A stretch of DNA of 64,000 nucleotides from assembly GCF_000505665.1 (NCBI RefSeq), contig NC_023033.1:434001-498000 (forward strand), given 5' to 3'. Shown piece by piece: positions 12,660 through 49,800 of this stretch (position 1 is its first letter; each line of letters begins with the position of its first letter). Below the pieces are notes generated by a model that made no database searches, was not told the origin of the DNA, and saw nothing but the letters and a program-made list of their open reading frames with translations. Position numbers and translations under genes: made by a program. The stretch is from Thermosynechococcus sp. NK55a. GTDB taxonomy: Bacteria; Cyanobacteriota; Cyanobacteriia; Thermosynechococcales; Thermosynechococcaceae.

Positions 12660-13193
12660 ATGGAGAATGCCTTACCTGCGGTTTATTTAAGTGTGTTGAT
12701 TATTCTACTGGGCGTCTCAGCTTGGTTTGTGGTCAAACAAATTCTTAAAACCCGCCGTATTGAGTCTAGCTTGGCACGCCTCCAACGGAAACTCAAGCAA
12801 GAACCGGGCACTACCCAAGAATACTTTGAGCTAGGCAGCATTTACCTCACTAAGAAACTCGCTAGCCAGGCAATTCCCCTGTTTCAAAAGGCCCTGAAGG
12901 CGGCTGAAAGCGAAGGCGAAACCTGTCTTGCCCCCATCTACAATGCCCTTGGCTATGCCTACTTCATGCAAGAGCAGTATGACTTGGCGATTCGCCAGTA
13001 CAAAGAAGCCCTCAAAAATCAACCGGCGTATGTGACTGCAGCCAACAACCTAGGTCACGCCTATGAGAAGAAGAACCTCCCCCAGCCAGCCCTTGAGGCC
13101 TATCAGCACACGCTGAAATACGACCCCAACAACGCGATCGCCCAACGGCGGGTGAATTCTCTGAAAAAACGACTCAGTGGTGCGGCAGCTTGA
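12660..13193 (+). CDS. ycf37: TPR protein, Ycf37-like photosystem I assembly factor
   Basis: 177 residues from ATG 12660; the frame is open from a TTG at 12642, but the ATG is preceded by GAGG and gives the expected N-terminus. One membrane helix (about 5-25, AVYLSVLIILLGVSAWFVV) is followed by a basic linker (KTRRIESSLARLQRKL) and three tetratricopeptide repeats (about 53-165; TQEYFELGSIYL, YNALGYAYFMQEQYDLAIRQ, ANNLGHAYEKKNLPQPAL). This layout and sequence match cyanobacterial and algal Ycf37, which supports photosystem I stability or assembly. It is convergent with psaL-psaI, consistent with a photosystem I role. Assignment within the large TPR family is by resemblance. Confidence 0.82.
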   Translation: MENALPAVYLSVLIILLGVSAWFVVKQILKTRRIESSLARLQRKLKQEPGTTQEYFELGSIYLTKKLASQAIPLFQKALKAAESEGETCLAPIYNALGYAYFMQEQYDLAIRQYKEALKNQPAYVTAANNLGHAYEKKNLPQPALEAYQHTLKYDPNNAIAQRRVNSLKKRLSGAAA

Positions 13194-29993: not shown

Positions 29994-30020
29994 GATACAC
30001 CCTGAGTATCTTGATGATAC
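29994..30020 (+). promoter_or_regulatory. LysR-type (NtcB-like) operator candidate upstream of nirA
   Basis: GATAC (29994-29998), seven bases, GTATC (30006-30010), five bases, GATAC (30016-30020). The first two half-sites form a perfect dyad of the T-N11-A type bound by LysR regulators. A LysR regulator gene, ntcB, lies in the same cluster, and NtcB is known to activate nirA operons in other cyanobacteria. The dyad is centred about 51 bp upstream of the NtcA box, close to five helical turns. Confidence 0.45.
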
Positions 30021-30046
30021 GAAAAATGCATATTGAAAAAACAAGT

Positions 30047-30088
30047 GTAGCAATATTTACAAATATTCACGATTGATGTGGCTAAAGT
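30047..30088 (+). promoter_or_regulatory. NtcA-activated promoter of the nirA operon
   Basis: GTAGCAATATTTAC (30047-30060) is a perfect NtcA box (GTA-N8-TAC). TAAAGT (30083-30088) fits the TAN3T -10 of NtcA-dependent promoters. The centre-to-centre distance is 32 bp, which places the box near -41 relative to a start around 30095. NtcA, the cyanobacterial CRP-type nitrogen regulator, should turn the operon on when ammonium is scarce. Confidence 0.85.
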
Positions 30089-30127
30089 TAGCTTTCAAAG
30101 AACCTATTAAAGACAAGGGCAACAATC

Positions 30128-31687
30128 GTGAGCAACAAAATCGAAGCCATTAAAAAAGAAAAAGATGGCTTGGCGGTTAAACAGGAGTTAGAAAAGTTTG
30201 CAGCCATCGGTTGGGAAAACATTCCTGAAGCCGATCGCGATGTCCGTCTCAAGTGGTTAGGGATTTTCTTTCGTCCCGTCACCCCTGGCAAGTTCATGAT
30301 GCGGCTGCGGGTGCCCAACGGTATTCTCACCAGTCAGCAACTGCGAACCCTCGGCGAAATTGTGGATCGCTACGGCGAGAACGGCAGCGGTGACATTACC
30401 ACCCGCCAAAATATTCAGATTCGCGGCCTACCCATTGAGGATATCCCGCAAGTCCTCGAGCAACTCCGCGCCTGTGGCCTCACCTCAGTTCAGTCGGGGA
30501 TGGACAATGTGCGCAATCTAACTGGCTCCCCCGTGGCGGGCATTGATGCGGCCGAACTCATTGACACCCGCCCCCTACTGATGAAGTTGCAGGCCATGAT
30601 TACCAACAATGGTCAGGGAAACCCTGAATTTAGCAACTTGCCGCGCAAATTTAACATTGCCATTGAGGGCGGTCGGGATAACTCCGTCCACGCCGAGATT
30701 AACGACATTGCCTTTGTACCTGCCTATCGGCAAGGGCGTTTGGGCTTCAACGTCTTGGTGGGGGGTCTCCTCTCTGCCCGCCGGTGCACGGCTGCTGTAC
30801 CCCTGGATGCATGGGTGCCTCCCGATGAGGCTGTGGTGTACCTCTGCCGTGCCATCCTGGAAATTTTTCGTGACCATGGCCTGCGGGGAAATCGCCAAAA
30901 GGCGCGGCTCAGATGGCTCATTGACGAGTGGGGCATGGAAAAATTCCGGGCCGCCGTTGCCGCCAAGCTTCCCTTTGCACTTCTAAGTGCCGCCCCCAAG
31001 GATGAAATCGCCTGGGACAAGCAGGATCATTTGGGGGTCCATCGCCAAAAGCAGCGGCGCTTAAACTATGTGGGATTGCACGTTCCCGTGGGGCGGCTCT
31101 ATGCCCCTGACTTCTGCGAACTAGCCCGGATTGCCCAAGTGTATGGTCAGTCAGAAGTGCGCCTCACGGTGGAGCAAAACGTGATCATTCCCCATGTGAC
31201 TGATGCCGTTTTGCCGAGCTTGCTGCGGGAACCCCTCCTTGGCAAGTTTCGGCCGGAACCCCCCTCCCTAGAGCGAGCCCTTGTTTCCTGTACTGGCGCA
31301 CAATTCTGCAACTTCGCCCTCATTGAAACCAAAAATCGTGCCCTTGCCCTTGCCCGCTGGTTAGATCAACAACTGGTACTTGCCCAACCAGTGCGTATTC
31401 ATTGGACCGGCTGTCCCAACTCCTGTGGTCAACCCCAAGTGGCCGACATTGGCCTCATGGGCACGAAAACCCGCCGCAATGGCGAAACTGTGGATGCCGT
31501 GGATTTGTACATGGGCGGCAAGGTTGGTAAGGATGCCAAGCTGGGCACCTGTATCAAAAAAGGGATTCCTTGTGATGAACTGCCTGAAGTACTGCGGCAA
31601 CTGCTAATTGAGCAATTTGGGGCAAAACCAAGGGGGTTGGAAGTGCCTCCCGTACCCACCCTGGCGGTGGCCATGATGGTTTCCTAA
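30128..31687 (+). CDS. nirA: ferredoxin-nitrite reductase
   Basis: Reduces nitrite to ammonium with six electrons from ferredoxin, using siroheme and a 4Fe-4S cluster. 519 residues from GTG 30128, with AAGGG eight bases before. Cluster/siroheme ligands are Cys388, Cys394, Cys429 and Cys433 (CTGAQFC and CPNSC). Conserved segments include RLRVPNGILTSQQLRTLGEI and GSGDITTRQNIQIRGL. The length is that of classical cyanobacterial NirA; I see no extra ferredoxin domain, which some filamentous strains carry. It is the first gene of nirA-nrtABCD-narB-narM, with the NtcA promoter directly upstream. Confidence 0.98.
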   Translation: MSNKIEAIKKEKDGLAVKQELEKFAAIGWENIPEADRDVRLKWLGIFFRPVTPGKFMMRLRVPNGILTSQQLRTLGEIVDRYGENGSGDITTRQNIQIRGLPIEDIPQVLEQLRACGLTSVQSGMDNVRNLTGSPVAGIDAAELIDTRPLLMKLQAMITNNGQGNPEFSNLPRKFNIAIEGGRDNSVHAEINDIAFVPAYRQGRLGFNVLVGGLLSARRCTAAVPLDAWVPPDEAVVYLCRAILEIFRDHGLRGNRQKARLRWLIDEWGMEKFRAAVAAKLPFALLSAAPKDEIAWDKQDHLGVHRQKQRRLNYVGLHVPVGRLYAPDFCELARIAQVYGQSEVRLTVEQNVIIPHVTDAVLPSLLREPLLGKFRPEPPSLERALVSCTGAQFCNFALIETKNRALALARWLDQQLVLAQPVRIHWTGCPNSCGQPQVADIGLMGTKTRRNGETVDAVDLYMGGKVGKDAKLGTCIKKGIPCDELPEVLRQLLIEQFGAKPRGLEVPPVPTLAVAMMVS

Positions 31688-36037: not shown

Positions 36038-36853
36038 ATGGAAACTCTCTATCGCCTTGATCCAAAGCTGACTGCTACCCAACACCTGCGCATTGAAGGG
36101 GTGAGCAAGTCTTACCCTAGTGCCAATGGTACCCATGTGGTGCTGGAGGATATTCACCTTGAGGTGCGCAGTGGTGAGTTTGTCTGTTTTATTGGCCATT
36201 CTGGCTGTGGCAAAACCACCCTCTTGAACATAGTTGCTGGTTTTACAACCCCCACCCAGGGAGAAGTGAGCCTCAATGGGGTGCCTGTGGGCCGTCCGGG
36301 GCCGGATCGCATGATGGTGTTTCAAAATTATGCGCTGCTGCCTTGGTTGACAGCCTACGAAAACGTTGAACTGGCGGTGAAGTCGGTCTATCCCCAGAAG
36401 ACGCGCCAACACCGTCGCCAAATTGTCGAGGAATATTTGGAACTGGTGGGTCTGACGCCGGCGGCCCACAAACGCCCCGCTCAACTGTCGGGGGGGATGA
36501 AGCAACGGGTGGCGATTGCCCGTGCCTTGGCGATTCAACCGGAGGTACTGCTGCTAGACGAGCCCTTTGGTGCCCTCGATGCCATCACGAAGGAAGAGTT
36601 GCAGGATGAACTCCTAAAAATTTGGCGCAGCCACCGGCTGACGGTACTCATGATTACCCACGACATTGATGAGGCACTCTACCTTGCGGATCGGGTGGTG
36701 ATGATGACCAATGGCCCTGCTGCCCACATCGGTGAGATTGTCGAGGTTCCCTTTCCACGCCCCCGCCGGCGATCGCGGCTTCTTGAAAACCCGCAGTACT
36801 ACGATCTGCGTAACCAGGTGCTTGACTTTCTGTATACTCGCTTTGGGCAATAA
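36038..36853 (+). CDS. nrtD: nitrate ABC transporter ATP-binding protein NrtD
   Basis: The second, single-domain ATPase of the nitrate importer, 271 residues. Walker A GHSGCGKT lies at 53-60, the signature LSGGMKQRVAIARAL near 150-164, Walker B LLLDEPFGALD just after, and the switch His in MITHDIDEALYLAD. It ends DFLYTRFGQ. It lacks the NrtA-like extension of NrtC. It lies 28 bp after nrtC and 7 bp before narB, fully embedded in the operon. Confidence 0.97.
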   Translation: METLYRLDPKLTATQHLRIEGVSKSYPSANGTHVVLEDIHLEVRSGEFVCFIGHSGCGKTTLLNIVAGFTTPTQGEVSLNGVPVGRPGPDRMMVFQNYALLPWLTAYENVELAVKSVYPQKTRQHRRQIVEEYLELVGLTPAAHKRPAQLSGGMKQRVAIARALAIQPEVLLLDEPFGALDAITKEELQDELLKIWRSHRLTVLMITHDIDEALYLADRVVMMTNGPAAHIGEIVEVPFPRPRRRSRLLENPQYYDLRNQVLDFLYTRFGQ

Positions 36854-39638: not shown

Positions 39639-40691
39639 CTAGAATTTTTCCAAGGTAGTTTGCAACCGATGCAACTGTTGAGCTACAGCACCACTGCAGA
39701 GCAATTCACTGCTTAGCGCTATTCCCTCATCCAGACTATTGGCTTTGCCCCCCTGCCACAGGTAAAAGCCACTATTCCAGAGGACAGAGGTGGTCAGGGG
39801 CTGCTCCTCTGGCTCTAAAACAGCAGCCATCATCTGGGCAGCGGTTGTTGTGTTCTTTGGCCATGGGACATTCCTGCCGGCCATCCTGTAGTCTTGGGGA
39901 TGTAGATGCAAGCGCTGCCAAGGGTTATCGCCCTTACGAGCAAGGCCAATAATTGCGGTCCGTTCACGGGGCAAATCACAACTGCCTTCAAGGCCTTTGA
40001 CGGTGGTAAATTCCTGAATGCCGTGGAGGTGGAGGGCATCGCGCATGATTGTTTCAGTTGGTGGATGGACAAACCCTGCCACGAGGTGGCTTTGACCTTG
40101 GTAGGGATTCCAGATTAATTCCAGTGTGGCAATCGGGGGGCGTTTACCAATTTGCTCACGGTAGGGGACTAGTCCTTGGGCAGCAGGAAAGTGTCGCGGC
40201 AGGTAGACAAAGCCTAAGTTGGTTTGCGCTAGGCAATGGGCAACTTGCCCTAGGGTAAGTGTCGACCAGTCCACCCCTAGGCATTGCCATAGCGTCAGCA
40301 GGGGAGTTCCCTCCTTCGTGGGCATGCGATCGCCCCCATGTTGGAGTACTGGTATTCCAGCGGCGGCCAGAACCAGTGCTGTCAAGGGGCTGAGCGGAAA
40401 GGTGCGATCGCGACCATCATAGGGCTGACTCAGGATCATGACAGGGCTACTGGTCTCAACGGCAGGAATCTTGGGACCCAGCTTGTTGTATGTGTCGAGC
40501 ATTCCCGCCATCTCTTCTGGGGTGGGTCGCTTAATCCGATGGGCAATGAGAAACGCCCCAATTTGGGCAGGGGTTGCCACTTGCTCCAGCATCAGTTGCA
40601 AAGCTAAGGCTGCCTCAGTGCGGGTTAGGTCTTTATGGGTATGGGCGCCACTGCCAACTTTTTTTAGCAAATCACGAAAGACAAGACTCAT
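39639..40691 (-). CDS. TrpD-like (anthranilate phosphoribosyltransferase family) protein with altered active site
   Basis: A 350-residue protein with the TrpD/TrpD2 fold: N-terminal helical domain (about 1-75; ALQLMLEQVATPAQIGAFLIAHRIK without its tail is typical) and a phosphoribosyltransferase-like domain. The PRPP loop GTGGD of TrpD is replaced by SQPYDGRDR (88-96), the KHGNR/SSKSG segment by HGGDRMPTKEG (118-128), and the acidic metal motif is missing near VKGLEGSCD (231-239). It is therefore unlikely to make phosphoribosyl-anthranilate. It overlaps the 3' end of ntcB by 20 bp, so translation is coupled to a nitrogen regulator. E. coli YbiB, a TrpD2 protein, binds nucleic acid, one possible analogy. 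Confidence 0.85.
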   Translation of the reverse strand: MSLVFRDLLKKVGSGAHTHKDLTRTEAALALQLMLEQVATPAQIGAFLIAHRIKRPTPEEMAGMLDTYNKLGPKIPAVETSSPVMILSQPYDGRDRTFPLSPLTALVLAAAGIPVLQHGGDRMPTKEGTPLLTLWQCLGVDWSTLTLGQVAHCLAQTNLGFVYLPRHFPAAQGLVPYREQIGKRPPIATLELIWNPYQGQSHLVAGFVHPPTETIMRDALHLHGIQEFTTVKGLEGSCDLPRERTAIIGLARKGDNPWQRLHLHPQDYRMAGRNVPWPKNTTTAAQMMAAVLEPEEQPLTTSVLWNSGFYLWQGGKANSLDEGIALSSELLCSGAVAQQLHRLQTTLEKF

Positions 40692-41583
40692 GGGCAGCCT
40701 GCTCGCGGATCAATTTGAGCAATTGGGCAACAGGGGGTAAGGTCAGGCGATCGCGGGTGGTAATGGCCAACACTTGCCGCGGCGGTGGGGGTGCCGCCAA
40801 ATCACGAATCACTAGGGTGGGATCCTCGAGAGCTTCCTGGAGAGCTGAGCGCGGTAGCAAAGCCACCATTTCACTTTCGCGAATCACTGCAATAAAAGCC
40901 TCAGGAGTGTTGAGTTCTAGGGCAGGTTGCCAAGACAGGCCTCGACGGCTAAATTCTTCGTTCACTAAGCGGCGCATGCCATAGCCGTCTTTGAACACTA
41001 CATGGGGAAAAGTGGCCAATAGTTGCCATGGCAAGGTTTCGTTAACCGCGAGGGGGTGTTCAGCAGCCATTAGCACTTGCACTGGCTCACTGTAGAGGAG
41101 TTCAACTACCCACTCAGACTGTTTTAAAAGGTGGCGATCGCCCATGACAATGGCTAAATCCACTAGTCCGTCTTGGAGAACCTTGAGGGCGCGATCGCTC
41201 CCCAGGGCTGTTACTCGCAACTGCATTTTGGGAAACGCTTGGCAAAACGCTGGTAACAGTCCGGGCAAAAAGTAGCGGCAAATGGAGTGAATAGCAGCAA
41301 TGCAGAGTTCCTGCTGCTGGCCATTTTGCATGGCTTTGAGTTCAGCATTGGCTGCCCGCCACTCTTGGCAAATGCGCTGAGCGCGGTGCAAAAAGAGATC
41401 TCCTGCCACTGTCAATTTGACTGGGTTCGAGCGGTGCAAGAGTTGCATCCCAAAACATTGTTCTAAGGCCTGAATTTGCCGACTAATTGTTGGCTGTGTC
41501 ACTCCACACCGTCGCGCTGCCGCCTGAAAGCTTCCTGTTTCAGCAATAGCCAAAAAGGATTGCAACTGATCCAGTCGCAACAT
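40672..41583 (-). CDS. ntcB: LysR-family nitrogen assimilation regulator NtcB
   Basis: A 303-residue LysR-type activator. The winged helix-turn-helix occupies about 1-60 (MLRLDQLQSFLAIAETGSF, GVTQPTISRQIQALEQ) and the effector-binding domain about 90-300. Its place between the nitrate operon and the Mo-cofactor genes, and its sequence, identify it as NtcB, which boosts nirA-operon expression when nitrite is present. Its own promoter carries an NtcA box (41645-41658) at the same spacing as that of nirA. The TrpD-like gene overlaps its 3' end. The LysR dyad near 29994 is its likely target. Confidence 0.88.
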   Translation of the reverse strand: MLRLDQLQSFLAIAETGSFQAAARRCGVTQPTISRQIQALEQCFGMQLLHRSNPVKLTVAGDLFLHRAQRICQEWRAANAELKAMQNGQQQELCIAAIHSICRYFLPGLLPAFCQAFPKMQLRVTALGSDRALKVLQDGLVDLAIVMGDRHLLKQSEWVVELLYSEPVQVLMAAEHPLAVNETLPWQLLATFPHVVFKDGYGMRRLVNEEFSRRGLSWQPALELNTPEAFIAVIRESEMVALLPRSALQEALEDPTLVIRDLAAPPPPRQVLAITTRDRLTLPPVAQLLKLIREQAAHESCLS

Positions 41584-41616
41584 TCCCTCTGTGCCTCAAT
41601 GGTTTAACCGCTCCCA

Positions 41617-41658
41617 ATGCTATGCGATTCCTACATAGCAAAGGGTATTCAGTGATAC
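41617..41658 (-). promoter_or_regulatory. NtcA-activated promoter of ntcB
   Basis: GTATTCAGTGATAC (41645-41658) is a perfect GTA-N8-TAC box. On the minus strand TAGCAT (41617-41622) fits the TAN3T -10. The centre-to-centre distance is 32 bp, identical to the nirA promoter, so the start should be near 41610, about 27 nt before the ntcB ATG. The box also contains the GATAC half-site seen in the LysR dyad at nirA, so NtcB autocontrol is conceivable. Confidence 0.75.
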
Positions 41659-43561: not shown

Positions 43562-44527
43562 TTAGCCTCCAATTTGGTGCATCGCATGGTGAACTTCTGC
43601 GCTGCGCAGGCTGGGTTTCATTCCTAACACTTGCCCATAGGCAGCATAGCGTTCAGCTTTGCTCAAGCCCCGCAGGGAAACCCCCGCTTCTTTAAATAGA
43701 CACGCCCTTAAGACACCATCTGCCGACAATCGCCAGCGAGAGCAGTGGCCACAAAAGGGCTGCGATTCTGAAGCAATGAAGCCAATCTGAGCCCCACAGG
43801 CGGTCTCAAAGTTAAACGAGGTGGAATCTTGAGGACGAGGGACAGGACGCAAATCGTAGTACTGGCGCAGGTGCTCAATCATGGTGGCGGCACTAACAAA
43901 GCGATCACTCCCCAAGTGGCAGGCATGGCCAATGCGCATCAGTTCCAAAAAACGCACCTCAACCCCTAAGGCTTTGGCGTACTCCACCATTGGCACCAAC
44001 TCGTGATCATTGACGCCCGCCATCACAACCATGTTTAGCTTGACTTGAAACCCTTGGTCAGCAGCGGTGGCAATTGCTTCCTTGACTGCTTCCAAATGGT
44101 GGCCATGGCTAATTGCTGCAAAGGTCTGGGGGTCTAAGCTATCAAGGCTAATATTTAAACGTCGTACACCATAGCGATCAAGCAGGGGCAAAAAGGGAAT
44201 AAGGCGAATGCCATTGGTGGTTAAGCGCAGTTCCGGTACACCCACTGCTACCAAAGCGGCCACAATCTCAGGAAACTCCGCTCGCAACAGTGGCTCGCCG
44301 CCTGTCAGCCGCACCGATTCAATCCCCAGTTCCACCAGTTCAGCTACAATCGTGGCATACTCAATTGGGGTGAGGTAGGTCTGGGTAGGCATGAAGGCTG
44401 CATCTAGGGGCATGCAGTAGGTACACCGCAAATTACAGCGATCCGTAACTGAGAGGCGTAACTTGCGAATTGAGCGCCCTTGGGTATCCCGCAGATGTTG
44501 TCTAGGAATGGCCCCGGTTACAACCAT
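43562..44527 (-). CDS. moaA: GTP 3',8-cyclase MoaA
   Basis: A radical SAM enzyme starting molybdopterin synthesis from GTP. ATG 44527 gives 321 residues; the frame is open to 44560 inside moeA. The N-terminal cluster is Cys31, Cys35, Cys38 (CNLRCTYC), the SAM-binding LTGGEPLLR is near 81-89, and the second, substrate-binding cluster is in the C-terminal CGHCSRWRLSADGVLRACLF. The protein ends MHQIGG, and the terminal Gly-Gly is a conserved MoaA feature that enters the active site. It lies 5 bp after moeA and 4 bp before moaC/mobA. The clusters need low oxygen or protection. Confidence 0.95.
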   Translation of the reverse strand: MVVTGAIPRQHLRDTQGRSIRKLRLSVTDRCNLRCTYCMPLDAAFMPTQTYLTPIEYATIVAELVELGIESVRLTGGEPLLRAEFPEIVAALVAVGVPELRLTTNGIRLIPFLPLLDRYGVRRLNISLDSLDPQTFAAISHGHHLEAVKEAIATAADQGFQVKLNMVVMAGVNDHELVPMVEYAKALGVEVRFLELMRIGHACHLGSDRFVSAATMIEHLRQYYDLRPVPRPQDSTSFNFETACGAQIGFIASESQPFCGHCSRWRLSADGVLRACLFKEAGVSLRGLSKAERYAAYGQVLGMKPSLRSAEVHHAMHQIGG

Positions 44528-44532
44528 GACTC

Positions 44533-45708
44533 CTAACTCCACGGAAAATAGCGATAGCACTCGCCCGCGGCAAAGGCTTCTTGAGAGGCAGGCAGTTCTA
44601 AAAATCCATCGCTATCAGCCAAAACCAAAAAATCACCAGAATTTTGCATCGGCCGAGGGTGGGCAATCAGCTCAGCGGTTTTTGTAGTTTCTAGTTTAAC
44701 GGGTAAAAAGTAGGTTAAGGGTTTCTCAAAGTAGAAGGGAGCAGCCAAGCGGGCATAGAGGGGCGGAATGTCCAATAGATAGCGGTGTAAACATACCAAA
44801 CTGGAAACCGGGTTCCCCGGCAAACCAAATACGGCCGTTTGCTGGCGGTGATCCACGCCAAACCAGAGAGGCTTTCCAGGACGCTGGGCAACACCGTGGA
44901 TATACTGCTGGACACCTTGATTGCGCCAGAGTTGTGGCAGATAGTCAAACTTACCCTTGGAAACGCCACCGCAGTAAATCAGAAGGTCGTAGTCTTGGCT
45001 CGCTTGGCAATAGTGGGTTGCCAGTTGTACTGGATCATCGGGCAAATGGGTGATGCTGACTTGGGTATAGCCTTGGTGCTTGAGGGCGGCCATCAGAGCA
45101 TAGGCATTGGAGAGTCGCAGCTGATGGGGCTGGGGTGTTTCGTGGGGCGCAATCAGTTCATTGCCTGTAGCAATGATTTGGGTGCGGGGGGTGCGCTGAA
45201 CACACACTTCGGTCTGTCCCACAGAGGCAAGAATGCCCCACGCCGGACTGTGCAAAGGGGTACCAGCGGCCAAAACGGGTTGACCGGCAGCAGCATCACT
45301 GCCACAGCGGTGGACAAATTGATAGGACGACCACGCTGCCGCACGTAGGATATGGGCAACACCGTCGCGAATCTCTAGGGCTTCATAGGGAATCACCAGA
45401 TCACAGCCTTGGGGCAAGGCCGCACCGGTCATAACTTCAAAACAGGCTTGCGTATCCGTGAGTGTTGGCGGTACTTCACCCGCGGGAACCACCCCCAGAA
45501 TCGGAAAAGCACGCTGACCAGACTGATAGGCTGCCCAGTTAAGGGCAATGCCATCCACCATGATGCGGTCAATGGGCGGGTAGGGGCGATCGCTGGTAAT
45601 CGCTACCGCCAGTCTGCTGTACCAAGGCTCAGTCAAGGAAATGATCTCTGTGCCCCAAGCGGGCAAATGCTGCTGAATAAGGTCAACGGCTGTTTCAACG
45701 GAAATCAT
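44533..45708 (-). CDS. moeA: molybdopterin molybdotransferase MoeA
   Basis: Inserts molybdate into adenylated molybdopterin to give active Mo cofactor. 391 residues: domains I and II around about 60-140 (RIMVDGIALNWAAYQSG, EVMTGAALPQGCDLVIPYE), domain III with TGNELIAP (about 190) and CGGVSKGKFDYLPQL (about 240), FGLPGNPVSSLVCLHRYLL, and domain IV ending ECYRYFPWS. It lies 11 bp after ureF and 5 bp before moaA, within a single run of minus-strand genes. Confidence 0.94.
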   Translation of the reverse strand: MISVETAVDLIQQHLPAWGTEIISLTEPWYSRLAVAITSDRPYPPIDRIMVDGIALNWAAYQSGQRAFPILGVVPAGEVPPTLTDTQACFEVMTGAALPQGCDLVIPYEALEIRDGVAHILRAAAWSSYQFVHRCGSDAAAGQPVLAAGTPLHSPAWGILASVGQTEVCVQRTPRTQIIATGNELIAPHETPQPHQLRLSNAYALMAALKHQGYTQVSITHLPDDPVQLATHYCQASQDYDLLIYCGGVSKGKFDYLPQLWRNQGVQQYIHGVAQRPGKPLWFGVDHRQQTAVFGLPGNPVSSLVCLHRYLLDIPPLYARLAAPFYFEKPLTYFLPVKLETTKTAELIAHPRPMQNSGDFLVLADSDGFLELPASQEAFAAGECYRYFPWS

Positions 45709-45719
45709 GGGCTAGACAA

Positions 45720-46415
45720 TTAACTCCGAAATAGGCGGCAGTAGAGCGTTTCGTGCTGCATACTGGCGAGGGCTAAGCCCAACGTACAGCTTTCTAAGTT
45801 TAAGTTATCGTCTAAGTGATGGTCAGTCACATTTAAGCTTTGCTGTACCGTCTGCTGAATTTGCGGCTGAAGTTGGCACAGGAGTACTTGCCCTGCTGTC
45901 TGACCAAGGGGAATCAGTTTCACCGTTGCATTGATCAGGGTGGTGACCCAACTGTGGAGATAGCCTAAAAGTGCGTTTTCTAGGGGAATGTCTGCAAGGG
46001 CAGCGGCAATACAAAAGGCAACACTGGTATTCCAAGGGTAGGGCTGGCCAGTCTGAAGTTCGGGGGGTAAGCGACCGAGGGCAGCGACAAGGTTGATCAA
46101 TGCTGTTCCCATTTGCCAATTTTGGGCGCGCAGTTCGGCACTTTCGCGGGCAGCCGAGAGCCATGCATTCCACTGGTGAACGGCGTCAAAATCACCCTTG
46201 GCGATCGCTCGATAGACCCGCACCATGACTACTGTTTCCAAGTGGGCACTGCCAAAGGCCAGTTCAAAGCTTAGCCAGTCCTGTAGGGCTGCTGCTGAGG
46301 TGATCTTGCCTTGGGCAATGAGAGTCTCCAAGCCCTCGGAGTAGTTAAAGCCGCCAATCGGTAGAGCCGGACTCGCCCACTGAAGCAAGGCTAAAAGCGC
46401 TGAATCAGTGAGCAT
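45720..46415 (-). CDS. ureF: urease accessory protein UreF
   Basis: Forms the UreF-UreG-UreD chaperone complex that delivers nickel to apo-urease. ATG 46415 gives 231 residues (the frame opens at 46454), overlapping the ureE stop by 11 bp. It starts MLTDSALLALLQWASPALPI and runs into GGFNYSEGLE, a hallmark of UreF, then a largely helical protein with AFGSAHLETVVMVRVYRA and the end SMQHETLYCRLFRS. The urease structural genes and ureD, ureG are not in the window; in cyanobacteria urease genes are often scattered. Confidence 0.93.
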   Translation of the reverse strand: MLTDSALLALLQWASPALPIGGFNYSEGLETLIAQGKITSAAALQDWLSFELAFGSAHLETVVMVRVYRAIAKGDFDAVHQWNAWLSAARESAELRAQNWQMGTALINLVAALGRLPPELQTGQPYPWNTSVAFCIAAALADIPLENALLGYLHSWVTTLINATVKLIPLGQTAGQVLLCQLQPQIQQTVQQSLNVTDHHLDDNLNLESCTLGLALASMQHETLYCRLFRS

Positions 46416-46839
46416 GGTAGGCACCGCGTTCGGGACAAAAGGGAGCGACTTCAAACGTCACCGTCAAGCCCCGCTGTTCAAGCATGGTTTGCAACACGGA
46501 ATCTGCGCCCAAGCGAAGATAATCGGCGTGAATTTCCAAGGGGACGTGGCGATTCCCGAGATGGTAAGCGGCCTGTAGAAGGTCAAGGGGAGTGGTAGCC
46601 ATCACCTTTAGCGTGGGTTCGGGTTTGGCGTGAACTGTGACTACCACCGTGCCGTCCTCGTCCCGAAGGCGATCGCCCGGCTGTAGGGTGATTTGACGGG
46701 GCAGCTTCAGATACAGTGACTCCCCCTCATCACTGTGGCAATGGAGACGACTGCGACACCGTTCCTCTGCGGTCAATGAGAGGTGCAACTGACGGGCATT
46801 TTCCAATGGTGTAGGGCAAAGTTGCGTCAGTGTGAACAT
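46405..46839 (-). CDS. ureE: urease nickel metallochaperone UreE
   Basis: A 144-residue nickel-binding dimer. The N-terminal peptide-binding domain (about 1-72) includes RSRLHCHSDEGESLYLKLPR. The C-terminal metal-binding domain (about 75-140) has AYHLGNRHVPLEI with His93 and His98, typical metal-site residues. It ends GAYHAH, a short His-bearing tail rather than the long His-rich tail of some UreE proteins. ATG 46839 shares one base with the histidine-kinase stop (TAATG), and ureF overlaps its own end by 11 bp, so all three should be translated together. Confidence 0.94.
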   Translation of the reverse strand: MFTLTQLCPTPLENARQLHLSLTAEERCRSRLHCHSDEGESLYLKLPRQITLQPGDRLRDEDGTVVVTVHAKPEPTLKVMATTPLDLLQAAYHLGNRHVPLEIHADYLRLGADSVLQTMLEQRGLTVTFEVAPFCPERGAYHAH

Positions 46840-49800
46840 TAAATCAGCGTTAATTCAACAATCTTATCAAAGCGAAATGTTTTCACTAGTTGCTGCAGAC
46901 CGGCAATCAAGGCGGCTTCTTCGGGTGGGATCTCAGCAATCAGTTCGCGAATACGTTTGGCATTGAGCTTTTTGGCGGCGGCTTGGAGTTCAGCAATCCA
47001 AGGGCGAGGCATCACCATTAAGGCGGCTGGATCAAGTCCCTGAGGAGGGGGGGCACTTGGGGGGGATAGGGCATCCTCGTAGGCATACTCTAGGTGCAAC
47101 TGGGCGGCGAGTTGTTCAAAAATCGTTTGCGGACGGAAGGGCTTGGCAATATAGTCATCACAACCAAGATTCAGCAGTTCCTGTTTGTCCTGCTCAAAGC
47201 TACTGGCGGTAACGGCAAGAATTTTCGGGGAGCAGACGACTTCGCCGCGCCGCAGGCGATCGCCCACTTCTTTCTTGATCTGTCGCGTGGCCGTTTTACC
47301 GTCCATGACGGGCATCCGAATATCCATGAGAATGGCATGGGGCTGCCATGCTCGCCAGATCTCCACTGCCTCTTGACCATTGCTAGCTTCGCGACAACGA
47401 AATCCGACCGGTTCTAGGAGTTGAGTGAGGAGTTGGCGATTTTCAGGAATATCATCCACCACCAGAATGCGGACTTCTGAGGTGGGCGATCGCAGGCCAA
47501 CAATAGCTTGTGCCTTTTCCTGCTGTAGCGATCGGGGATCTCCAAGGTCAATTGGCACTTCGAAGTAGAAGTGGCTGCCTTTCCCCTTGGTGCTACGCAC
47601 CTGAATATTCCCCCCCATCAATTGCACAAACTGGCGGCTAATGGCCAACCCCAGACCGGTACCTTCGCTGACTTTTTTACTGCTATCGGTTTGGACAAAG
47701 GGCTGAAAAAGCATCTTCAACTCCTGCGGAGTCATGCCAATACCTGTATCACTGACTTCAAAGGCAAGGCGAGGGGGATCTGGGGCTGGATAGCTGACCT
47801 TGAGGCAGACGCTCCCCTCCTTGGTGAATTTAATGCCATTTCCCAGGAGGTTGACTAACACCTGGCGGAGCTTCATTTCATCGGTCGTCACCGCCACAGG
47901 CAGATTAGCAGGCAAATCAAAGACCAGACGTAACCCCTTGGCTTCAGCTCGCACCTTCAGCATCTCTTCCAGATCCCGCAGCATCCGCCGCAAATCAAAG
48001 GTGGTTTTCTGAAGTATCATCCGTCCAGCCTCAATTTTGGCCATGTCTAGGACATCGTTAATCAAACCCAGCAGGTGTTCGCCACTGCGATTAATCTTTT
48101 CAAGGGTTTGGCGATGCTGCGGTGCAAGGGTGCGATCGCTGAGCAAAATTTGACTAAAGCCGAGAATGGCATTGAGGGGGGTGCGCAGTTCATGGCTCAT
48201 ATTGGCCAGGAAAATACTTTTGGCTTTATTGGCGGCCTCCGCGGCTTCCTTAGCCTTGAGCAGCTCCCGCTCCGCTTGATGGCGTTGATGAGCAGCAAGG
48301 GCAATGGTCACAATATCAGCGACATTGGAGACAAAACTGCGTTCCTCCACTAGCCAAACCCGATGCTCACCAATACTCTCAACACAGATCACTCCCAATA
48401 ATTGGCCATTGAAGATGATCGGGGCATCAATGCGGGAATACACCCGTTGCACTCTGGCATACTCCCGCAGTTCGTGGGTGCGCGGATCCGTGAGTAAATC
48501 ATTGACGACAAGGGGTTCACCCGTACGCAGCAGTTTTAGGTACTCCGGATAGGGGGAATGGGTGAGGTACGTGGGTTGAGAATGGTTATTGGCGGCGGGG
48601 TCATACTGCACAACACACTTCAGGCGATCGCCCTGGAGTTCCCATGCCGAAGCCCGCTGGACGCGCAGTGTTGTTGCTGTGACCTGAATAATCTCCTGCA
48701 AGGCCATGCGAAAGTGCCCCTGCTGTACATGGGGAGATTGGCTGAGCTGAACAAGGGCAACATTGTGGTCATGGAGCACCCGTTCTTTTTCGCTCAGTTG
48801 TTGGTTGGCGGCCTCAAGGGCAGCAGTACGCTGTTTCACCTTTTCTTCAAGCCGCTGATTAAAGTGGTGGAGTTCATCAAAACTCTCCTGGAGTTGTGCC
48901 GCCATATCCACAAAGGTGCGACCGAGGTTCCCCAACTCGTCTTGGCTGTGGGTATCTACCTCCTCTGCAATGTCCAGATTGCCGAGGGCAATTTTGTGAG
49001 CAGCGGCAGCCAACCTCTGAATTGGGCGCACCATATAGCCGGTAACCCCCAAAGTCACCAGACTAATCAAACCAAAAGAGACGACGAGTATCAGCAGACC
49101 TGCCCATGTTTCTTGATGAATAAAATCCAGCAGCGCCTCTTCCCTCACCCGGATGGCCAGGCTCCAACCAACTTCGGGAATTGGGGTGTAAAAAAACCAT
49201 TGCTGCTCATTGGAGACCCAATCAGTCATCCAAAGATGGCCACTGTGGCCACTGATCATCGCTTTAGCCAAAGCCGCCAGATCACTGCGGTTGTACTCCT
49301 TGGCAATGTAGAGGATTGACTGGCCAATGAGCTGAGGATCCCCGTGGAAGATAATCCGTCCCTTGCGATCCAGAACAAAAAACTGCGCCTGCCGTAGCCC
49401 TTGGATATCGATTTCCTGTTGCAGCGTTGGCAGTGCCACATCCACCGTGGCAACACCGCGAATTTGCCCCTGGCGGTAAAAGGGAACGGCATAGGTCACC
49501 ATCCAGGCATTACCTGCCCCTGCATCGAAGTAGGGATCACTCCATTGCGGTTGGCCAGTGCGGATAGCTTCCCTGTACCAGTCCCATCTGACCTGGGTGT
49601 AGTCGTAGATGCGCCCAGTGTCCTTTTGTACCAGTCTGTTGCGATGTATGTCTCTGTAGACGTAGGGGGCAAATAAGCGTTTGCGAGGGGAGAAGCTGTA
49701 GGGGGTGAAAGCGATTGCTGTCCCATAGGCTAAACGGCTGATTTTGAGATTGCGACGCAGAAATGAATACAGCTCCTCCTCACGGACGGCAGGAAACGCT

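Follow-up and report, generated by a model that had tools for sequence, protein, structure and literature searches.

A conserved tandem dyad, a candidate NtcB site, at a near-fixed distance from the NtcA box of cyanobacterial nirA promoters

Results

We analyzed a stretch of 64,000 nucleotides of the Thermosynechococcus sp. NK55a genome, referred to here as the window, which contains a nitrate cluster. On its plus strand, nirA (positions 30128 to 31687, with a GTG start) codes for ferredoxin-nitrite reductase (886 bits with NF007125; cut-off, 594) and is the first gene of nirA-nrtABCD-narB-narM. The narM gene scored 216 bits with TIGR02664 (cut-off, 110). The nrtA and narB genes remained below every NCBIfam cut-off; the names nrtA to nrtD and narB rest on our reading of sequence and gene order. 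The minus strand carries ntcB (40672 to 41583), located within the same cluster as an earlier note on this DNA had claimed. It codes for a LysR-type regulator with LysR helix-turn-helix and substrate domains, the presumed binder of the dyads described below. Its protein reached none of the cut-offs of the 25 NCBIfam models listed out of 50; judged from similarity and cluster position, it is taken as the orthologue of NtcB. Three PF00126 LysR genes are present in this genome, ntcB being the one in the nitrate cluster. The end of ntcB overlaps by 20 bp a gene with a TrpD-like glycosyltransferase fold (39639 to 40691, minus strand), which we take to be cnaT-like, and the two genes probably form one operon.

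Upstream of nirA, the string GATACACCCTGAGTATCTTGATGATAC (29994 to 30020) reads GATAC-N7-GTATC-N5-GATAC and is the sole exact match to this pattern in the 2.52-Mb genome. With up to three mismatches allowed, 0.37 matches were expected by chance in the window and two were found, namely the string itself and an overlapping two-mismatch match on the opposite strand. A sequence scan placed an NtcA box, GTAGCAATATTTAC (GTA-N8-TAC), at 30047 to 30060 and a -10 element, TAAAGT (TAN3T), at 30083 to 30088, exactly 22 bp after the box and likewise on the plus strand. These are the positions given for the string, the box, and the -10 element in the earlier note, which had also put the first dyad about 51 bp upstream of the box, centre to centre; we measured 51.5 bp (30002 to 30053.5). 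The nirA start site is expected near 30095. The three fixed letters of the -10 element were invariant in all nine nirA promoters of the genus. For an NtcA box followed after 22 bp by TAN3T, the expectation over the window was 0.04 occurrences, and three were found: at nirA, at ntcB, and inside nrtD. The last match (36644 to 36685), located within coding sequence, is probably due to chance.

We lined up the nine nirA promoters of the genus on the NtcA box. The earlier note had taken three GATAC half-sites as the unit, and the literal pentamers were kept in only four, one, and two of the nine promoters, respectively. Across nirA promoters, the conserved unit is ATRC-N7-GYAT (mostly ATGCA-N5-TGCAT) and not GATAC. 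It occurs twice, as tandem LysR-type T-N11-A dyads on the plus strand. Candidate NtcB dyad 1, ATACACCCTGAGTAT (29995 to 30009), begins 52 bp before the start of the NtcA box, with its centre at about -93 relative to the expected start site. Candidate NtcB dyad 2, ATACGAAAAATGCAT (30017 to 30031), lies 22 bp downstream of dyad 1 and is centred at about -71. The ATRC/GYAT cores of dyad 1 matched in all eight letters in eight of the nine promoters (seven of eight letters in the remaining one, G005), and those of dyad 2 in all nine. In G007 and G008, dyad 1 reads ATGC...GCAT, both halves having changed together. Conservation of the half-sites in close relatives, the check named in the earlier note, fails for the literal GATAC but holds for the cores. 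The reading of the first dyad as a T-N11-A LysR-type site also stood, and the site is conserved at a fixed distance upstream of the box.

The core alignment identified the third half-site as the left half of dyad 2, pairing rightward with GCAT (30028 to 30031). The combination GTATC-N5-GATAC was considered as a functional dyad and rejected as an accident of this genome, its outer bases varying within the genus. The mean majority fraction in the genus was 0.90 for the dyad 1 core and 0.96 for the dyad 2 core, compared to 0.63 both within the dyad 1 spacer and in the interval separating the two dyads, and to 0.58 in the upstream flank. The dyad 2 spacer (0.84), the interval from dyad 2 to the NtcA box (0.76), and the 22 bp that follow the box (0.83) were conserved as well. 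The window contained 3 single ATRC-N7-GYAT dyads where 3.82 would be expected by chance, and significance therefore rests on the tandem pair, its spacing, and its conservation rather than on one dyad. One single dyad, at 12966, falls within a 183-residue frame of TPR-like appearance.

To cover a wider range of cyanobacteria, NirA was searched in 58 relatives and in 388 genomes of the class, 318 of which gave a match at 1e-150. Upstream regions were taken from 108 genomes of 85 genera, our own choice aimed at different genera from among the matches listed by score; well-scoring NirAs are over-represented in this sample. A second NirA copy in G048 enters the count of 109 loci and is left out of the counts of 108 genomes. 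NtcB was matched at 1e-50 in 300 of the 388 class genomes and in 105 of the 108 sampled ones (missing in G008, G016, and G272). A perfect NtcA box was present upstream of nirA in 90 of the 108 genomes, giving 106 boxes, 103 of them usable. Around these boxes, dyads with at least seven of eight letters were found at offset -52 in 65/103 and at offset -30 in 60/103, compared to a mean of 0.18% and a maximum of 5/103 at background offsets.

We also built a profile anchored on the NtcA box alone, from the 75 promoters, representing 56 genera, in which just one perfect box occurs. It displayed ATGC-N7-GCAT at -52 to -38, ATGC-N8-CAT at -30 to -16, and TAN3T at +36 to +41, so that both dyads and the -10 element were recovered without prior input of either. 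The second site has no conserved G in its right half in this class profile, the upstream site being the more complete one.

When the box was relaxed to GT-N10-AC and the first dyad was accepted at -51 to -53, it was found in 94 of the 108 genomes and 74 of the 85 genera. The same relaxed test at other offsets gave 2.45 genomes on average and 7 at most. The box-dyad pairs with relaxed boxes were concentrated at -52 (84 pairs), with 7 at -53 and 3 at -51. Fourteen of the 108 genomes, G039 among them, had no 7/8 dyad at the first-dyad spacing. Scoring exact dyads only gave 53 positives among the 109 loci; given the rise to 94/108 upon relaxation, many of these misses reflect one-letter departures or imperfect boxes. 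The nirA gene of same-genus G002 (G002:C1:1958952-1960506) was found in two overlapping pieces, one of them with a stop, and may be broken or carry a sequencing error.

Independently of any gene, we searched the 388 genomes for the pattern dyad-N36..38-box, with the reversed pattern as a control. The dyad plus box was present in 166 genomes and the reversed control in 33 (counted from the table). We inspected a subset of the matches, 30 loci taken in the order of the list with a single locus from each genome. In 24 of them, the composite lay in the correct orientation upstream of nirA (18 loci), nrtA (3 loci), or narB (3 loci), within 430 bp in 23 cases and at 874 bp in one. None of these three genes was found downstream in the other 6 of the 30. 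In the present genome, the exact composite matched at nirA only; at up to two mismatches, it was found at 13 places, versus 12 for the reversed control. As the real and control counts are alike, we claim no further activated target of NtcB in this genome.

Some inspected genomes showed unusual arrangements of the composite. In G161, a HEAT-repeat gene that may be nirB runs divergently from nirA, and the interval between the two genes holds one dyad with an NtcA box 51 to 52 bp away on each side (positions 2257-2372 and 2810-4162 on L172; the HEAT-repeat gene starts 438 bp further). In G050 and G195 (L062, L173, and L174), a dyad upstream of nrtA is shared with a second NtcA box facing the opposite way. 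The opposite-facing composite points to a DUF1565/SLH-domain gene at about 110 to 265 bp in G050, depending on the start codon, and at 690 to 810 bp in G195. G215 and G167 carry extra composites upstream of the nirA composite, facing short frames only.

The dyads broadly accompany ntcB. In family f2, 26 of the 29 nirA-bearing genomes were examined, and none of the 26 had an NtcB match at 1e-25. With relaxed boxes, the first dyad was found in one of these 26 NtcB-less genomes (G273), compared to 0.25 on average and 3 at most at other offsets. A perfect NtcA box was present in only 8 of the 26 nirA upstream regions, and f2 promoters may therefore differ altogether. Moreover, since the NtcB-less group is a single family, the association of dyad and NtcB comes close to one evolutionary event. 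Three genomes, G016 (99% complete, in 160 contigs) and the fragmented drafts G281 and G320, have a dyad at nirA and no NtcB match at 1e-25. G272, also a fragmented draft, has a dyad at nirA and no NtcB match at 1e-50. These four genomes speak against NtcB as the binder.

The same-genus draft G008, in which ntcB was not found, has an intact nirA promoter before a 129-residue nirA stump (at about 4749-5135 of L199, which is G008:C14:14000-20858). Beyond the stump, the contig runs into a match to positions 44391 to 49112 of the window, and the nitrate cluster of G008 seems to have been lost by deletion.

We picked five genomes with low-similarity NtcB, at E values near 1e-50 to 1e-60. In all five, NtcB is 39 to 42% identical, and its gene adjoins and is divergent from nirA. 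None had a perfect box with a dyad; with relaxed boxes, the first dyad was found in three of the five and the second in none. We had considered these genomes as dyad lacking and dropped this reading once relaxed boxes revealed the first dyad in three. Two members of one genus, G041 and G060 (L043 and L142), with a 42% identical NtcB divergent from nirA, are without the dyad. They have in common a palindrome-like GGTTATTGA[CG]TC[AG]ATAACC between ntcB and nirA. In G019 (L010 and L189), ntcB and nirA are divergent neighbours, and the nirA dyads are thus also upstream of ntcB.

The promoter of ntcB is of the canonical NtcA type. On the minus strand, an NtcA box, GTATCACTGAATAC (41645 to 41658), lies 22 bp before the -10 element TAGCAT (TAN3T; 41617 to 41622). 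Between them is an NtcB-like dyad, ATGTAGGAATCGCAT (41622 to 41636, minus strand; 7/8), centred at about -19 relative to an ntcB start site expected near 41610. A box-like GTATCA-N6-AC followed after 22 bp by TAN3T was found in all eight ntcB promoters of the genus examined. At the same place, a dyad with at least seven of eight letters was present in seven of the eight, the exception being the closest relative, G003 (5/8). Outside the genus, 12 ntcB promoters were compared: six match the box pattern and score 1 to 3 of 8 at the dyad place, and in the other six the box pattern was not found. Bound near -19, NtcB would block polymerase at ntcB, and autorepression through the dyad at 41622 to 41636 is possible. 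The right half of this dyad is better conserved (0.91) than the left (0.78), and conservation also reaches into adjacent sequence (0.84), which leaves the autorepression reading suggestive only.

Discussion

We consider it very probable, from the sequence comparisons, that the conserved pair upstream of nirA is an NtcB tandem site beside the class II NtcA promoter of the nirA-nrtABCD-narB-narM operon. The main alternative is that a different LysR protein, encoded at G000:C1:815977 or at 1712280, occupies the dyads and links nitrate use to carbon status; we take both genes to be of the RbcR/NdhR kind. T-N11-A dyads are common to LysR proteins in general, and this genome has these two PF00126 genes besides ntcB. 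However, the dyad plus box marks nirA, nrtA, or narB in 24 of the 30 inspected loci, and hardly any nirA of the family without NtcB has the dyad. The recognition helices point the same way, seven NtcB-type helices reading S[RK]QI.ALE or S[RK]QI.SLE and those of the other two proteins reading SLQVQNLE and SIQMKQLT. The helix argument is weak, because G041 and G060, both without the dyad, belong to the NtcB-type group. Overall, we regard binding by another LysR protein as unlikely.

Two further readings concern the DNA itself. The literal model of three GATAC half-sites, with GTATC-N5-GATAC as the second functional dyad, draws on a string that is exact and unique in this genome. The genus alignment largely refutes it: the pentamers survive in 4, 1, and 2 of nine promoters and the outer bases vary, making this model highly improbable. 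We think it just as improbable that the conservation reflects shared ancestry or a nonregulatory element, such as the end of the ahcY transcript, rather than protein binding. The region does begin some 240 bp past ahcY, the window holds no more single dyads than chance would give, and within the genus conservation is also seen in the dyad 2 spacer (0.84), the interval before the NtcA box (0.76), and the 22 bp after it (0.83). On the other hand, the dyad cores (0.90 and 0.96) exceed the first spacer and inter-dyad stretch (0.63) and the upstream flank (0.58), and in other genomes nrtA and narB are preceded by elements at the same spacing.

A tandem NtcB site can be compared with known systems. 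In classical LysR promoters, T-N11-A sites are arranged in tandem as a recognition and an activation site. The nirA promoter resembles them in its two tandem sites, the upstream one being more complete in the class profile, and differs in that both (-93 and -71) lie upstream of another activator and do not reach the -35 region. For Synechococcus elongatus PCC 7942, Maeda et al. (1998) reportedly described a nirA promoter with an NtcA box and a -10 element behind it, an NtcB-dependent nitrite response, and a motif, TGCA-N5-TGCA. This motif fits inside the class-profile ATGC-N7-GCAT and is compatible with it; the dyads of the present genome read ATAC-N7-GTAT and ATAC-N7-GCAT. In G039, which we take to be close to PCC 7942, nirA is preceded by three perfect NtcA boxes, and only the second site (-30), TTGCAAGATTTGCAT (7/8), is strong. 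By contrast, the promoter studied here has two strong dyads, their core having drifted to ATAC/GTAT.

The nir operon of Anabaena PCC 7120 is said to need both NtcA and NtcB (Frias et al., 2000). The Anabaena nir promoter has an NtcA box, 22 bp, and TAACCT (PMC3898017), the same layout of box, 22 bp, and -10 element as at nirA here. The same source describes a canonical NtcA promoter for Anabaena ntcB (PMC3898017), and the ntcB promoter here is likewise of the NtcA type.

According to our model, NtcA would bind GTA-N8-TAC centred near -41.5 and recruit polymerase to the TAN3T -10 element, as in class II activation. Like many LysR proteins, NtcB would probably act as a tetramer, covering the tandem dyads near -93 and -71, which are separated by two turns of the helix. 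With its effector, nitrite in studied relatives, it would contact polymerase or the NtcA complex and increase transcription. The near-fixed distance between box and dyads leads us to predict a direct contact of NtcB with NtcA or polymerase. A further study states that NtcB and NtcA mediate the effects on nirA of nitrate, which is sensed as nitrite, and of 2-oxoglutarate (PMC4915528). The suggestion of the earlier note that the promoter is an AND gate for nitrogen limitation and nitrite is, by analogy, plausible.

A more far-reaching proposal is that a fixed-geometry NtcB-NtcA complex has been kept across most of the class, including the first dyad in three of the five genomes with about 40% identical NtcB, and that in this genus NtcB also represses its own gene from the dyad at the -10 element. 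We offer this proposal tentatively and consider it somewhat doubtful. Coactivation of nitrate genes by NtcA and NtcB is already known. The near-rigid geometry and the genus-level NtcB-like dyad at the ntcB -10 element may be new. In the portions of the literature consulted, neither an NtcB site nor the box-dyad spacing was found; the portion covering a study that clusters nirA upstream regions mentions an NtcA site only (PMC4755962).

If the tandem dyads are the NtcB site, the known genetic result that nitrate genes need both NtcA and NtcB would become a DNA rule that can be read from sequence in many genomes, and the control of nitrate genes would be predictable in strains without genetics.
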